This document shows positions 3,885-12,932 of a stretch of 64,000 nucleotides of DNA, piece after piece. The notes beneath the pieces are model-generated. The model saw only the letters and a program-made list of their open reading frames with translations. It was not told the DNA's origin and did no database searches. The position numbers and the translations under genes are program-made. Numbering within the stretch: position 1 is the stretch's first letter; each line of letters begins with the position of its first letter. The DNA comes from Acidobacteriota bacterium (GTDB lineage: Bacteria; Acidobacteriota; UBA890; WLXD01): contig WLXD01000001.1 of the NCBI GenBank assembly GCA_012103255.1, positions 310,001 to 374,000 of the forward strand. Reading direction: 5' to 3'.

Positions 3885-4625
3885 GTGCTCAAGAAGTCAG
3901 TGATCACTTTGTCTGCCGCCGCGACCCTGGTGGTCGCGCTGCCGCTTGAGGCTCAGAGCCTTCGCGGAAGTTCGGCGTCGATGGATCGTCAGAACGCCCA
4001 GGCACGGGCTCACGACTTTACCTTCCTGCGCGACGGGCGCCACGTCACCACTTTCGTGAACTCCGGCTTACTTGTGCGACTCCCGGGCAACTCGAACTAC
4101 GAACTGAACGCGGTGTCGTATCCCTACGCCCGCCCGGAAGTGAAGCTATTCGTAGAGCGTCTTTCCGCGCAGTTTCGCGGAGCGTGCGGCGAGAAGCTGG
4201 TAGTCACGAGTCTCACGCGGCCGCAGAACGGCCAGCCGCGCAACGCCTCTTCGCGGTCGGTGCATCCGACTGGGATGGCGCTCGATATCCGCCGGCACAA
4301 CACGCCCGCGTGCCGGAGCTGGCTGGAACGCGTGCTGCTATCGCTCGAGGGCAGCCAGGTGCTCGAAGTCAGCCTCGAACACCGCCCGCCGCACTACCAC
4401 ATCGCCCTTTTCCCGGACCCGTATCGCTCCTACGTGACCCGTCTGGGCGCCAGCACAACGGTCGAGCGCGCCGCCCCGGGCACCTATGTGGTGTCGCGTG
4501 GCGAGACGCTATGGCGCATCGCCAGGAAACACGGCACCACGCCCGCCGCGATCCAGCGCGCAAACGATCTGCGCGACACGACGATCTACCCGGGCCAGGA
4601 ACTGCGCATCCCCGCGACTCGCTGA
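3885..4625 (+). CDS. Secreted M15/MepA-like (DUF5715) protein with C-terminal LysM
   Basis: Exported protein of 246 residues with signal peptide 1-24 (cleavage after LEAQ). The middle domain carries SVHPTGMALDI (H127, D134) and PHYHIAL (H170, H172), the His/Asp/His-x-His pattern of the hedgehog/DD-peptidase fold (M15, MepA). Residues about 198-245 are a LysM peptidoglycan-binding repeat (YVVSRGETLWRIAR). A periplasmic peptidoglycan-acting zinc protein is a reasonable inference; activity is unproven for DUF5715. The start is GTG with AGGA upstream. Confidence 0.75.
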   Translation: MLKKSVITLSAAATLVVALPLEAQSLRGSSASMDRQNAQARAHDFTFLRDGRHVTTFVNSGLLVRLPGNSNYELNAVSYPYARPEVKLFVERLSAQFRGACGEKLVVTSLTRPQNGQPRNASSRSVHPTGMALDIRRHNTPACRSWLERVLLSLEGSQVLEVSLEHRPPHYHIALFPDPYRSYVTRLGASTTVERAAPGTYVVSRGETLWRIARKHGTTPAAIQRANDLRDTTIYPGQELRIPATR

Positions 4626-7950: not shown

Positions 7951-8307
7951 ATGAACCGACCGACCGACGAATTCCTGCCGCTTACCCACGTCGTCTACCA
8001 CATCCTCCTGTCTCTTTCGGCCGAGGCACGGCACGGCTACGGCATCATCAAGGACGTCGGCGAACGGACGACCGGCCACCTCGAACTCGAGGCCGGAACG
8101 CTCTACGCCGCGATCCGGCGCCTGCGCCACGATGAGTTGCTTGAGGAACGCCCTGCTCCTGAAGGCACAGATGCGCGGCGCCGCTACTACGCGCTCACCG
8201 CGTTCGGACGTGAAGTTCTGCAGGCGGAGTCAGAACGGCTCGAAGAACTCGTTGCTCTGGCCCGCGACGCCATGATCCTGCCGAGCACGCCGAGCGCCGG
8301 TGCCTGA
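7951..8307 (+). CDS. PadR family transcriptional regulator
   Basis: 118-residue winged-helix regulator. The PadR signature is clear: HGYGIIKDV in the first helix-turn-helix and LEAGTLYAAIRRL in the recognition helix, with a short C-terminal dimerisation helix. The adjacent ADOP1 begins one base past its stop. PadR/ADOP pairs are characteristic of Acidobacteriota. The upstream palindrome at 6939-6948 is the most likely operator. Confidence 0.9.
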   Translation: MNRPTDEFLPLTHVVYHILLSLSAEARHGYGIIKDVGERTTGHLELEAGTLYAAIRRLRHDELLEERPAPEGTDARRRYYALTAFGREVLQAESERLEELVALARDAMILPSTPSAGA

Positions 8308-8308
8308 A

Positions 8309-11062
8309 ATGAAGAGCCGCGAACTCCGCCTGTTCCGGGCGCTCATGTGGCTGCTGCCGGCGCGCTTCCGCGCCGAGTACGGCGACGAGATGTGTCGCGT
8401 CGCCGGCGAGCAATGGCAGGTCGTGCGACCCATCTCCGGTCGTCTTGGAGCATTCCGTTTCTGGACGCGCCAGAGCTTCGCGCTCGTCCGCGCCGGCTGG
8501 GATGCCCGCCCTGGCGGGCCGGCCGGAATCCAGGGCATGGCCACCAACCCGCTCACGACTTTCAAACGCAAACGAACCCCTACTAAACGTCGACTCGACG
8601 GGAGAGATGCCATGGACGGCTGGCTCCAGGACATTCGCTACTCGGTGCGCAGCCTGATCAAGCGCCCCGGCTTCACCGTCATCACCGTGGCCACGTTGGC
8701 TCTCGGCATCGGTGCTTCCACGGCCATCTTCAGCGCGGTGCACGCCGTGATCTTCCGCGGCCTGCCGTATGGCGAACCGGACCGCATCGTCACTCTCTTC
8801 CACGAGGACACGGTGACCGGCGAGCGCGGCGAGGGCTTTTCGGCAGGCAACGCGTTCGATCTCGGAGAGTCGTCGCAGCACCTGACGGCCGCGGCGATCG
8901 CCGACCCCTTCTCGCTCGATCTCCAGGTCGACGGGCGGGCCGAGAGCCTGCGCACCTGGCAGGTGTCCGAGGGGTTCTTCAGGGCCGCGCGCGTCGAGCC
9001 TCTGTACGGGCGCACGTTCACGGTGGACGAGTATCAGACCGGCAGCGAACCAGTCGTGCTCCTCGGCTACTCGAGCTGGCAGAACCGTTTCGGCGGAGAG
9101 GCCAACATCGTCGGTGACGCGTTGCTGCTCGACGGCGCGCCGCGCACGGTGGTGGGCGTGCTGCCGCCGGAGTTCAAGCTGCCGGACGAAGCCGAACTGT
9201 GGATCCCGCGCCCCGTCCAACCGTGGGACGCCAATGCGCGAGCAGCCGACTACATGTTCGGCGTTGCACGCCTGGCCGAAGGCAGCACGCTGGCCGAAGC
9301 ACAGGCCGAGGCCGCACAGATCGCCGGTGGGCTCGAAGAGGCCTTTCCCCAGCCAATGGGTGAGACCACCTTTCGGCTCATGCCGCTGAATGAGTACTTC
9401 TTCGGCGACGTACAGGCGCCGCTTCTCGTCCTCATGGGGGCCGTCGGCTTCGTTCTGTTGATCGCCTGCGCCAACGTGGCCGGCCTCATGCTCGCTCGCG
9501 GCAGTGAGCGCTCGCGGGAGTTCGCGTTGCGCGGCGCCATCGGCGCAAGCGCAGGCCGCTTGATGCGGCAGGTCACGGTCGACTCACTTCTGCTCGCGAC
9601 GCTGGGCTGTGTTGCTGGCATCGGACTCACACTCATCGGCATCCGGACGATCCGTGGACTCGCGCCCGCCACGCTCCCCCGCATCGACGAGATCGGGATC
9701 GATGGCACGGTGCTCGCGTTTGCCGTTGCGGTCGCGGGAATCAGCGCGGTGCTCTCTGGCCTGGCGCCGTCGCTGCGCTTCTCCAAACCCGATCTGCGGG
9801 ATTCGCTGAACGAGGGCGCGCGCGGTTCAACCGGAGGCCCGGGTGGCCGAACGCTGCGCGGCAGCATTGTGGTAGCCGAGGTCGCACTGGCGATGGTGCT
9901 CCTCGTGGGCGCTGGCTTGCTGACCCGCAGCTTCAACACGCTGATGGACCAGAATCTGGGGTTCGATGCCACCAACCGGCTGGCGCTCCAATTGTTCGCT
10001 TACGGCTACGGACAGAATGGCGGCATGACGCGCGGTGAGTTCGTCAACCAGACCATCGACGAGATGGAGGCCATCCCGGGTGTCCGCAAGGTCGCACTGA
10101 CGACAAGCATTCCCGGAGCCAACGACGAGGGCGCGCTGGCGGCGATCGATATCGACCTGCCGTTCGCGATCGTCAATCGGGTCCCGCCCCCAGCGGGCAG
10201 CGAACCCGAGGCCAACGTGACACTCGTGTCTGACAGCTACCTCGACGTTCTCGGTGTCGAACTCGTCACGGGTCGTACCTTCGGCCTCGCCGACAACAGC
10301 GATGCGCCGCCCGTGACTCTGATCAACGAGGCGTTCGCTCGACGCCACTTCCCGGCAGACGACCCCGTCGGCGAGAAAGTGGTCGTCGCTCTTGGCGGCA
10401 ACGCGCCTACCGAACACGAGATCGTCGGCGTCGTTGGCGACGTGCTTCCCGCCGGGCATGCGTCGACGCCACGGCCCGAAATGCTGTTCTCCTTCCGCCA
10501 GTACGGCGGGCTCGGCTTCGCCGGCAACCTCACGTTCGTCGTCGCCAGCAACATCGACGCTGCTCAGATCACCAACCCCGCCAAGGAGGCCGTCTGGCGC
10601 ATCAACCCGAACCAGTCAGTCTGGGGCGCGGCCACGCTGGACTCCCTGCTCGGCGCGTGGTTGGAACAACGCCGTTTCAACCTCGTCCTGCTCGGCTCGT
10701 TTGCAGTGCTCGCGCTGTTCCTCGCCGGCATCGGCATCTACGGACTGATCAGCTTCTCCGTGGAGCAGCGCATCGGCGAGATGGGCATCCGACGTGCCCT
10801 CGGCGGCCAGTCCGGCAACATCGTCCGCATGGTGCTCGGCGAAGCCTGGCTCCTCGCCGCAGTCGGCGTCGTGATCGGCCTCGGCGGCGCCTTCGCGCTC
10901 ACCCGCTTCATCCAGGGCATGCTCTTCGGCGTGGAACCCACCGACCCGATGACCTTCATCGGCCTGGGCGGCATGGTCCTGTTCGTCGCCGCGTTGGCGG
11001 CCGTGGTCCCGGCCTACCGAGCGACGCGTGTGGATCCGATCGTGGCGTTGCGGAGCGACTGA
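8309..11062 (+). CDS. ADOP-type MacB/FtsX permease (ADOP1)
   Basis: Inner-membrane protein of about 917 residues: N-terminal ADOP helix region (RLFRALMWLLPARFR), a TM helix near residue 125, MacB periplasmic core domain, FtsX permease unit (around 370-470), a second MacB-like core, and a C-terminal FtsX unit ending DPIVALRSD. This duplicated layout without a fused ATPase defines acidobacterial duplicated orphan permeases. An ABC ATPase would have to come from elsewhere; none is encoded nearby. A GTG at 8300 overlapping the padR stop is an alternative start. Substrate is unknown. Confidence 0.9.
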   Translation: MKSRELRLFRALMWLLPARFRAEYGDEMCRVAGEQWQVVRPISGRLGAFRFWTRQSFALVRAGWDARPGGPAGIQGMATNPLTTFKRKRTPTKRRLDGRDAMDGWLQDIRYSVRSLIKRPGFTVITVATLALGIGASTAIFSAVHAVIFRGLPYGEPDRIVTLFHEDTVTGERGEGFSAGNAFDLGESSQHLTAAAIADPFSLDLQVDGRAESLRTWQVSEGFFRAARVEPLYGRTFTVDEYQTGSEPVVLLGYSSWQNRFGGEANIVGDALLLDGAPRTVVGVLPPEFKLPDEAELWIPRPVQPWDANARAADYMFGVARLAEGSTLAEAQAEAAQIAGGLEEAFPQPMGETTFRLMPLNEYFFGDVQAPLLVLMGAVGFVLLIACANVAGLMLARGSERSREFALRGAIGASAGRLMRQVTVDSLLLATLGCVAGIGLTLIGIRTIRGLAPATLPRIDEIGIDGTVLAFAVAVAGISAVLSGLAPSLRFSKPDLRDSLNEGARGSTGGPGGRTLRGSIVVAEVALAMVLLVGAGLLTRSFNTLMDQNLGFDATNRLALQLFAYGYGQNGGMTRGEFVNQTIDEMEAIPGVRKVALTTSIPGANDEGALAAIDIDLPFAIVNRVPPPAGSEPEANVTLVSDSYLDVLGVELVTGRTFGLADNSDAPPVTLINEAFARRHFPADDPVGEKVVVALGGNAPTEHEIVGVVGDVLPAGHASTPRPEMLFSFRQYGGLGFAGNLTFVVASNIDAAQITNPAKEAVWRINPNQSVWGAATLDSLLGAWLEQRRFNLVLLGSFAVLALFLAGIGIYGLISFSVEQRIGEMGIRRALGGQSGNIVRMVLGEAWLLAAVGVVIGLGGAFALTRFIQGMLFGVEPTDPMTFIGLGGMVLFVAALAAVVPAYRATRVDPIVALRSD

Positions 11063-11094
11063 GAAGGACGGGGGAACCGAGCATGCCGAATGAC

Positions 11095-11139
11095 GGCTTC
11101 ACACGTTGGAAGTCGGAGGTTCGGTTCCTCCCGCGCCCA
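11095..11139 (+). pseudogene. 3' half of a tRNA-Val(CAC) gene
   Basis: The 45 bases read as the 3' half of a valine tRNA: anticodon loop TTCACAC with CAC anticodon, variable loop, a 5-bp T stem (GGAGG/CCTCC) with T loop TTCGGTT, acceptor 3' strand CGCGCCC and discriminator A. No matching 5' half (acceptor GGGCGCG, D arm) lies upstream, and A58 of the T loop is G. It is therefore a fragment, not a working gene. Such 3' fragments are usual at the distal end of elements integrated at tRNA genes. Confidence 0.6.
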
Positions 11140-11160
11140 CTCCCTTTTAGCGCCGGGCGA

Positions 11161-11652
11161 TCACTCCGCGGAGTCGAGGTGCTCAAGGTCGTCGAGATCC
11201 TTCGGGCGTCCCGCTGCCCTCTTGTTCTTGATCAGCGCCTCGACGCCCAAGTACGGGATGGGCGTTCGCTGCTCGCCATCCACCATTACGGCGGGGACGC
11301 GACCGGCCCAGGCCTCGTTGAAGTCGACTCCAGCGACCGAGGTCATGATGTCGATGCGATTCGGCGGCATGCCGAACTGCACGATCAAGTCCACCGCGGT
11401 CAACTCCGCCGGCGACGCGATGCCTGGCACGTCGCCTTCCCAGAACTTCTCCAAGGCCGAATAGAGCCGCCGGGCGTTGTCCGGATCGTTGGCAATGAAG
11501 AAGTCGACGTCACCCGTGAGTCGGACGTACCCGTGGAAAATCACGGCCTCGCCGCCGACAACGACGTACTTCACCTCGAACTCGTGAAGGTGCCGGACGA
11601 AGTTGCGCGTGTCAGCCGAGAAATGTGCGGCGTCTACTTCGATCGGTGCCAA
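11161..11652 (-). CDS. Nucleotidyltransferase-fold protein (AbiEii/DUF6036-like, possible toxin)
   Basis: 163 residues. Motif VVGGEAVIFHG followed by LTGDVDFFI gives the GG...hD-h-D signature of DNA polymerase beta-type nucleotidyltransferases (D48, D50). It resembles the AbiEii/MNT-like enzymes found in type IV-style toxin-antitoxin and HEPN/MNT systems. The start overlaps the end of the 56-residue gene at 11634-11804 by 19 bases, so the two form a coupled pair. A tRNA-Val fragment lies 21 bases past its stop. A toxin role is inference from fold and arrangement. Confidence 0.75.
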   Translation of the reverse strand: MAPIEVDAAHFSADTRNFVRHLHEFEVKYVVVGGEAVIFHGYVRLTGDVDFFIANDPDNARRLYSALEKFWEGDVPGIASPAELTAVDLIVQFGMPPNRIDIMTSVAGVDFNEAWAGRVPAVMVDGEQRTPIPYLGVEALIKNKRAAGRPKDLDDLEHLDSAE

Positions 11653-11804
11653 TCGCGGACATCCCGGGTGGCGCCAGAATAGGCACGGCGTTTGAGTTCG
11701 CGGGCGGCTCGCTGACGTTCACGCGGTGTCATCCGGCGCTGCTGCTCGATGTCCCAGCGCCTCGCCTCAGCGTGATCGCGCGCCTTGTGAACGATGCGTT
11801 TCAT
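11634..11804 (-). CDS. Small conserved-looking protein, partner of the nucleotidyltransferase
   Basis: 56 residues, highly charged: starts MKRIVHKARD, contains RRWDIEQQRRMTPRERQ and ends VRDWHRSK. This pattern (basic start, WDIEQQ, MTPxxR, then a VRDxHR tail) is one I recognise as a recurring small ORF directly upstream of such nucleotidyltransferases. Its stop overlaps the nucleotidyltransferase start. On the minus strand TACAAT lies six bases before the ATG, consistent with a leaderless transcript. A role as antitoxin or adaptor is plausible and untested. Confidence 0.65.
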   Translation of the reverse strand: MKRIVHKARDHAEARRWDIEQQRRMTPRERQRAARELKRRAYSGATRDVRDWHRSK

Positions 11805-11810
11805 GCACCC

Positions 11811-11816
11811 ATTGTA
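11811..11816 (-). promoter_or_regulatory. -10-like box next to the ATG of the small ORF
   Basis: TACAAT on the minus strand ends six bases before the ATG at 11804. No strong -35 is visible. If used, transcription would start at or next to the ATG (leaderless mRNA). Confidence 0.35.
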
Positions 11817-11887
11817 CCTCGCGATGCGGCCGACGGAACGGTAGAAGTCGGAGGCTCTTTGAGTTCGCGCGCGATGTCTGCACGATA

Positions 11888-11913
11888 TATAGTTATCTAT
11901 ATGGCTAACTATA
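11888..11913 (+). promoter_or_regulatory. ArsR-type operator spanning the start codon
   Basis: A perfect inverted repeat, TATAGTTA (11888-11895) and TAACTATA (11906-11913), has a 10-base spacer that contains the ATG of the arsR-like gene at 11901. TATAGT within the left arm sits where a -10 would be for a leaderless transcript. The location strongly suggests autoregulation by the encoded winged-helix protein. Confidence 0.6.
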
Positions 11914-12239
11914 CGGTGTCGCTGGATAGCGTCTTCCGGGCGCTTTCCGATCCAACACGCCGAGCCGTTGTTCAGCGGCTCGTGGCCGAGCCGACCAGCG
12001 TGAAGACGCTGGCCGAGCCGTTCGACATGGCGCTGCCGTCGTTCATGAAGCACCTGGCGGTTCTGGAAGATTGCGGGCTGATTGCTTCGACGAAGTCGGG
12101 GCGCGTGCGGACGTGCCGTCTGCAGCCTCGGCGACTGGCGGTCGTGGACGACTGGGTGCAGGCGCAGCTGCGGGACTGGGAAGGCGTGATGCAGCGACTC
12201 GCCGACCACGTCGAGTCGACCGAGCGACCGAACACATGA
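11901..12239 (+). CDS. ArsR/SmtB-family helix-turn-helix regulator
   Basis: 112-residue winged-helix repressor: ALSDPTRRAVVQRL, then LPSFMKHLAVLEDCGLI (recognition helix) and a wing with KSGRVRTCRLQP. No cysteine metal site typical of ArsR/CadC is visible, so it belongs to the metal-independent group that is usually paired with an SRPBCC (AHSA1) gene. That partner follows 45 bases downstream. No Shine-Dalgarno sequence precedes the ATG; the operator covers it instead. Confidence 0.85.
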   Translation: MANYTVSLDSVFRALSDPTRRAVVQRLVAEPTSVKTLAEPFDMALPSFMKHLAVLEDCGLIASTKSGRVRTCRLQPRRLAVVDDWVQAQLRDWEGVMQRLADHVESTERPNT

Positions 12240-12284
12240 GGTCGGGCGGCCGGCCTCTCCCTTGAACAGATGTGGAGACTTCCA

Positions 12285-12932
12285 ATGACTGATCCCGTGC
12301 ATGAAACCCTTGGTGCTGTGGCCCGGTCGGCGACGGCGCGTGAGGAGAACGGTCGGATGGCCTTCGAGATCGTCGCCGCCCGCGAGTACAACACCGGCGC
12401 AGCCGATCTCTGGGACGCTCTCACCAACCCTGTGCGGCTCGAGCAGTGGTTTCTGCCCGTGACAGGTGAACTGCAAGAGGGCGGCAACTTTCAGTTTGAA
12501 GGCAACGCCGGTGGCGAGATCCGTGAGTGCGCGGCACCGGCGAGCCTGGTCGTTACGTGGGGTATGGGTGAGGACACCAGCTTGGTGAGTCTCAAGCTCG
12601 AAGAAGTAGCCGCAGATTGCACGCGACTCACGCTCGAGCACACCGGCAAGGTCGCGCCCGAATTCTGGGAGCAGTACGGGCCGGGCGCGGTCGGCATCGG
12701 CTGGGACATGGCCTTGTTCGGCGCTGCGGAGCACTTGTTGCCCGAGCCGGCGGTTACGCGGGCCAATGCCGAAACCTGGATGATGTCGGACGAGGGCAAG
12801 AGCTTCTCGCGCGAGAGCGGTGCGGCCTGGGGGGAGGCAGCGATCGCTGGCGGCGACGAGCCGGCTGCGGCAGAACGCGCGGCCGCCACCGTGATCGGGT
12901 TCTACACCGGAGAGACGGCGCCGGACGCCTGA
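12285..12932 (+). CDS. SRPBCC domain (AHSA1-like) protein
   Basis: 215 residues of the START/Bet v1-type SRPBCC fold. Typical features: an N-terminal strand EIVAAREYNT, the motif LWDALTNPVRLEQWFLP, and a central VVTWGMGEDTSLVSLKLEE. Such proteins bind hydrophobic ligands in a helix-grip pocket and are often encoded next to ArsR-like repressors. GGAG lies upstream of the ATG at 12285. Its last 31 bases overlap the convergent glycosyltransferase gene. The ligand is unknown. Confidence 0.85.
   Translation: MTDPVHETLGAVARSATAREENGRMAFEIVAAREYNTGAADLWDALTNPVRLEQWFLPVTGELQEGGNFQFEGNAGGEIRECAAPASLVVTWGMGEDTSLVSLKLEEVAADCTRLTLEHTGKVAPEFWEQYGPGAVGIGWDMALFGAAEHLLPEPAVTRANAETWMMSDEGKSFSRESGAAWGEAAIAGGDEPAAAERAAATVIGFYTGETAPDA

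Follow-up and report, generated by a model that had tools for sequence, protein, structure and literature searches.

A conserved overlapping gene pair of a small helical protein and a DUF6036-type nucleotidyltransferase as a candidate MenAT1-like toxin-antitoxin module in an Acidobacteriota genome

Two small overlapping genes on the minus strand of the window (the whole stretch of 64,000 nucleotides that was analysed) raise the question of whether they form a functional pair and, if so, which of the two proteins acts on the other. The first gene (11634..11804) begins with ATG and encodes a basic protein of 56 aa, the proposed antitoxin; the second (11161..11652) begins with TTG and encodes a DUF6036-type nucleotidyltransferase (NTase) of 163 aa, the proposed toxin, and the two frames share 19 bp (11634..11652), through which they are presumably translationally coupled. 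The TTG lies inside the end of the small frame and is the sole start codon before the conserved N-terminus of the NTase, while most relatives of the NTase start with ATG or GTG and overlap the small gene by 1-4 bp, some of them by more. A first-pass annotation of the locus had described a 56-residue basic protein overlapping an NTase by 19 bases, and both ORFs are indeed found there, on the minus strand.

It might be supposed that the small ORF is a chance, non-functional frame upstream of a lone NTase, given that it is short and that the minus-strand frame of the window stays open far upstream (a mechanical ORF of 506 aa). However, this reading appears already refuted by conservation, and its probability is close to nil, for three reasons: first, the small ORF is conserved across phyla with its start at the matching position. 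Second, purifying selection seems to act on both genes: a comparison of two close relatives gives a pN/pS of 0.16 for the NTase gene and, with the overlap left out, of about 0.2 for the small gene, each over few sites. Third, an iterated profile specific to the small protein recognises a relative at 98 of 125 NTase loci, a few of which are the same place fetched twice, and it finds no match in 3880 shuffled ORFs and four in 2657 other ORFs, all four at loci from which no small gene had been extracted before.

The homologues of the small protein share the consensus EAExWDIEQQIRMTPEERQxIAKxLKERxYGxNPPDVR. The pattern WDIEQQ..MTP..VRD, which had been reported as recurring, is present but occurs once in the window protein, and the recurrence is between homologues. 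Helices are predicted at residues 11-24, 27-41 and 49-55 with moderate confidence (pLDDT 76). Neither Pfam nor NCBIfam nor PADLOC gives a significant match to the protein, its relatives give only single matches at chance level in Pfam and NCBIfam, and the PDB does not cover the family either; the proposed antitoxin family is without a name in any database searched. Two hits were set aside as chance: a match of the small protein to Tox-GHH of Pfam (E 0.018, below the cut-off) and one of the small-family profile to kanamycin nucleotidyltransferase, at the N-terminus of that enzyme (E 0.012).

The family of the NTase is clearer. The window protein scores above the Pfam cut-off for DUF6036 (PF19502; 31.7 bits against a cut-off of 23.6, E 1.6e-7) and also for DUF2204 (E 5e-6), whereas its match to AbiEii stays below it (12.5 bits against 22.5, E 0.14) and PADLOC returns a weak AbiEii match alone (E 0.015). 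Among 12 homologues, all 12 match DUF6036 and half match AbiEii, weakly and at best with 1.3e-4. The earlier label of an AbiEii/DUF6036-like protein therefore stands in its second half; its first half is partly right, given that an AbiEi-type antitoxin is absent. Modelled with AF2, the NTase folds with high confidence (pLDDT 93.4), and its best match among solved structures in the PDB by Foldseek is MenT1 of the MenAT1 complex (8an5_B; E 8.7e-5, probability 1.00, TM 0.63), followed by TM1012; the TM-scores against MenT1 are moderate, at about 0.6, and the relatives of the fold include antibiotic nucleotidyltransferases as well as TM1012. In a sequence-profile search of the PDB, MenT1 (8an4, 1.8e-4) is the sole match below 0.01.

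The active site of MenT1 consists of T39, D41, K137 and D152 (PMC10435456). In the close clade of the window NTase the conserved active-site residues are G33, R44, T46, D48, D50, D101, K144, R149, D152 and D155, and across 88 distinct intact pairs T46, K144 and D155 are conserved at 100% and D48 and D50 at 98%. It is likely that T46, D48, K144 and D155 are the equivalents of the four MenT1 residues, with D152 as the alternative to D155; the equivalence of T46 and D48 comes from a profile alignment to MenT1 and that of K144 and D155 from the order of motifs, and the four positions, counting either aspartate, are conserved at 94-100% in the 88 pairs.

MenAT1 of M. tuberculosis (Rv0078B-Rv0078A; PDB 8AN4, 8AN5 and 8RR5) consists of a 68-aa antitoxin encoded upstream of an NTase toxin (PMC10435456, PMC11375011), and the window pair resembles it in the gene for a small helical protein upstream (56 aa here), in the absence of a DNA-binding domain from that protein, and in an NTase fold with the same active-site residues, including the position of the threonine phosphoacceptor. 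There are also differences: the NTase here is about 20% identical to MenT1 over the fold and has 163 rather than 196 aa, MenT1 belongs to DUF1814/AbiEii and the window protein to DUF6036, and the small-family profile does not match MenA1 up to E = 10. Membership of the MenAT1 type thus fails on the antitoxin, and the pair is a variant rather than MenAT1 itself. The first-pass annotation knew of no characterised function for the pair; this needs softening, MenAT1 being a characterised analogue.

Do the two genes belong together? A search for homologous pairs, which that annotation had suggested, found co-occurrence and linkage clearly conserved across phyla. Searched from both proteins, 297 genomes of the phylum Acidobacteriota contain a match to the small protein in 19 cases, that of the window included; the motifs of the family are present in 12 of these matches, which are counted as confident, and the weaker ones are distant relatives or chance. 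Ten of the 12 confident small genes lie directly before an intact NTase; of the other two, the one in G110 precedes a frameshifted NTase and the one in G064 has no NTase after it. A homologue of the NTase is present in 140 of the 297 genomes. Within this sample the close NTase clade (44-55% identity) has the small gene just upstream in every case, and most of the distant NTases (30-46% identity) also follow a small upstream gene, whose product shares the half 'D..YW.S.TPEERL..v..LR' with the window protein and usually ends in R-L-Q-R-V-x-R-V, not P-D-V-R. Homologous overlapping pairs in the same order occur in Acidobacteriota/Aminicenantes, Calditrichota, Balneolaceae and Verrucomicrobia, and a scan of species genomes with the small-protein profile added loci in Aminicenantes, Calditrichota, Balneolaceae, Verrucomicrobia, Spirochaetia and Gemmatimonadetes. 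Over the 88 pairs, the evolutionary distances of the small proteins and those of the NTases are correlated: the Mantel r is 0.66, it stays at 0.63 once the close clade is removed, and the permutations reach 0.13-0.14 at most. This shows that the two proteins travel together; such a correlation can also arise from joint inheritance without binding. Within genus and family the distribution is patchy, with several NTase copies in some genomes, and the bicistronic linkage of two small genes with a patchy, mobile distribution is what is generally found for toxin-antitoxin (TA) modules.

The direction in which the pair decays bears on the roles of its two members. The small gene is intact beside a frameshifted NTase at two loci (L021, L024), beside a deleted NTase at one (L030) and without any NTase at two more (L029, L013). 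Set against these five loci, no intact NTase of the close clade was found without the small gene; the five orphans come mostly from searches that started from the small gene and are biased in that respect, while the count that starts from the NTase (the 140 of 297 genomes) is unbiased. This one-way loss of the NTase fits the NTase as toxin and the small protein as antitoxin, and in genomic terms the predicted toxin gene of the close clade is not kept without its antitoxin gene, as expected of a TA module.

It is possible to turn the roles around, with the small protein as toxin and the NTase as an antitoxin that nucleotidylates it, as MntA does to HepT, an arrangement known from many small NTases that act as antitoxins to a neighbouring helical partner (HEPN/MNT, PMC7641770). 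However, this is improbable: the loss runs in the opposite direction, small genes outlasting the intact NTase; the NTase fits the MenT1 toxin fold and carries the motifs R-x-T-x-D-x-D and K...D; and the small protein has no HEPN domain, given that neither the window protein nor its relatives match HEPN and that neither an invariant His nor a HEPN-type catalytic motif is among the conserved positions. HEPN/MNT (HepT/MntA) modules likewise consist of two small genes, one of them for a minimal nucleotidyltransferase, but here there is no HEPN partner, the NTase is of the MenT and not the MntA type, the predicted polarity is reversed, and the one-way loss itself argues against an arrangement with the NTase as antitoxin.

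Taken as a whole, the pair is best explained as a MenAT1-like two-gene TA module, a reading to which a probability of roughly two in three is given. The TA-like character, already proposed in the first-pass annotation, is supported by the MenT1-like fold, the active site and the one-way loss of the NTase. By analogy with MenT1, the second gene would encode a small toxin of the polymerase-beta type that adds nucleotides to RNA, most likely to the 3' acceptor end of tRNA, and so stops translation. The small helical antitoxin, encoded by the first gene and presumably made first because the frames overlap, would bind the NTase. MenA1 is helical, binds MenT1, keeps it from adding CMP to tRNA ends and makes it phosphorylate itself at T39 (PMC10435456, PMC11375011); by the same route, binding of the antitoxin here may reposition the invariant T46 such that the NTase phosphorylates itself at this residue and becomes inactive. 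Toxicity of the NTase, its tRNA substrate, direct binding and auto-phosphorylation are predictions of this reading.

Other known systems share some of these features. AbiE (AbiEi/AbiEii, a type IV TA system acting in abortive infection) and MenAT3 also have the NTase toxin second in a bicistronic pair, with NTase motifs in common and weak AbiEii profile matches, but the winged-helix antitoxin AbiEi (COG5340) is replaced here by a first gene for a 56-aa protein, and the NTase is much smaller than the AbiEii model of PADLOC (296 positions). The Pfam entries DUF6036 and DUF2204 cover the same NTase family and TM1012 (2EWR, 2FCL, 4HX0) has the same fold, yet these entries have neither a function nor a named small partner, and such a partner is described here. 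A literature search returned nothing on DUF6036 and nothing relevant on DUF2204, and the comprehensive TA survey of 2009 covers MNT-HEPN and does not name AbiEii, DUF1814 or COG5340. Nearly all known NTase toxins belong to MenT or AbiE, and the present family, common in Acidobacteriota and found in several other phyla, extends the MenAT1-like architecture to a small partner without a database family. If the reading is confirmed, DUF6036 would gain a function, a much deeper alignment would be at hand to test the silencing of an NTase by a tiny helical protein, and the generality of antitoxin-induced auto-phosphorylation at an invariant threonine could be put to the test.

In another reading the pair is regulatory and non-toxic, the NTase modifying a specific cellular target with the small protein as its activator, adaptor or substrate, possibly with a tie to surface polysaccharide synthesis. 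In its favour, the module has rmlC on one side and rmlD on the other in Aminicenantes genomes, glycosyltransferase genes adjoin another locus, and an NTase family present in 140 of 297 genomes is very common for the phylum. Several of the genes next to the module on the chromosomes of relatives belong to polysaccharide synthesis or metabolism and not to defence, which speaks against the TA reading. Nevertheless, this is considered unlikely: the slot between rmlC and rmlD is filled by different subfamilies of the module (L022 against L034 and L035), which looks like an exchange of mobile modules, the distribution is patchy in genus and family with multiple NTase copies in some genomes, and decaying TA modules explain the orphan small genes and the broken NTases more readily. 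At L022, L034 and L035 the module occupies the same rmlC-rmlD junction, around positions 4000-4600 of each locus.

In the window, the MenAT1-like pair is flanked on one side by an FtsX/MacB-type permease gene (8300-11062, plus strand) and on the other by genes for an ArsR-type regulator (11901-12239, plus strand) and an AHSA1/SRPBCC protein (12270-12932, plus strand). The 3' part of tRNA-Val(CAC), reaching from D-arm to acceptor end, is duplicated at 11087..11143 (plus strand); this copy ends 17 bp from the stop codon of the NTase and is 95.7% identical over 47 nt to the intact tRNA-Val (G000:C4:316454-316527). A degenerate second copy (11838..11857, plus strand; 18 of 20 identical to tRNA-Val) lies in the same orientation 735 bp from the first, and apart from these two copies the window has one further match of this sort, which is a genuine tRNA gene; Rfam gave nothing meaningful near the module. 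Because these tRNA-Val-derived direct repeats bracket it, the module is probably a mobile passenger. An empty site at this locus was sought by way of the ArsR gene, for which 20 relatives hold no orthologue. In two species of the genus (window 11161-12932, and L204:1662-3044 of G001) homologous AHSA1/SRPBCC genes, 75.5% identical in nt, stand next to DUF6036 modules and near tRNA-Val sequences, as if this were a recurring insertion site; the two modules belong to different subfamilies.

The genome holds about ten 3' copies of tRNA-Val(CAC), most of them in one array with the same orientation and a spacing of 0.5-5 kb; copies lie at G000:C1:718910-735972, G000:C1:1182632-1182689 and 11087-11143 of the window, and the sole intact gene is that at G000:C4:316454. 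The array looks like one of tRNA-attachment-site cassettes. All three RVT_1 reverse transcriptases (RTs) of the genome (L082, L083 and L084; G000:C1:717340-718353, 734387-735640 and 1183297-1184205) stand next to such tRNA-Val segments, in a convergent arrangement common to all three. In 247 genomes of the phylum nothing closely related to them occurs, and relatives 39-46% identical are carried by enterobacterial, Vibrio and Burkholderia plasmids, some of them beside fimbrial or IS genes. In two sister species of one genus the intact tRNA-Val(CAC) is filled in one (L204, G001:C56:66-730) and empty in the other (L205, G017:C101), the filled site having an insert of 589 bp that carries a SnoaL-like ORF and the RT upstream leader, is bounded by a duplicated 3' half of the tRNA, and contains no integrase. 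An origin of the repeats from a tRNA-primed retroelement was considered, but the comparison of filled and empty sites agrees better with site-specific insertion at the tRNA, and the related plasmid RTs adjoin fimbrial or IS genes; no mechanism is therefore claimed for the repeats. The broadest proposal would join a large unnamed TA superfamily (a TPEER-type helical antitoxin with a DUF6036 NTase), antitoxin-induced threonine auto-phosphorylation as its general off switch, and sub-kb cassettes bounded by 3'-half repeats of tRNA-Val in this lineage, within an RT-linked element family; it is distinctly unlikely to hold in full. Were the TA module confirmed, such modules would have been seen riding tRNA-targeted mini-elements.

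No relatives were found among the viral contigs of IMG/VR, with the small protein, the small-family alignment and the NTase alignment as queries, and the small protein is without a close relative in phage or plasmid records; carriage by phage is thus unsupported. Relatives of the module do occur on plasmids: those of cyanobacterial Geminocystis plasmids lie beside VapC and type I R-M genes, a setting that counts in favour of the TA reading, that of an Annamia plasmid lies beside a restriction gene, and that of an Acidisarcina plasmid has IS6 elements and a recombinase nearby. A fused DUF6036 protein of about 630 aa, longer than the window NTase, follows a different small gene on plasmids of Spirosoma and Fibrella (L211, L215), and in Fibrella it neighbours an AbiEi/AbiEii pair.
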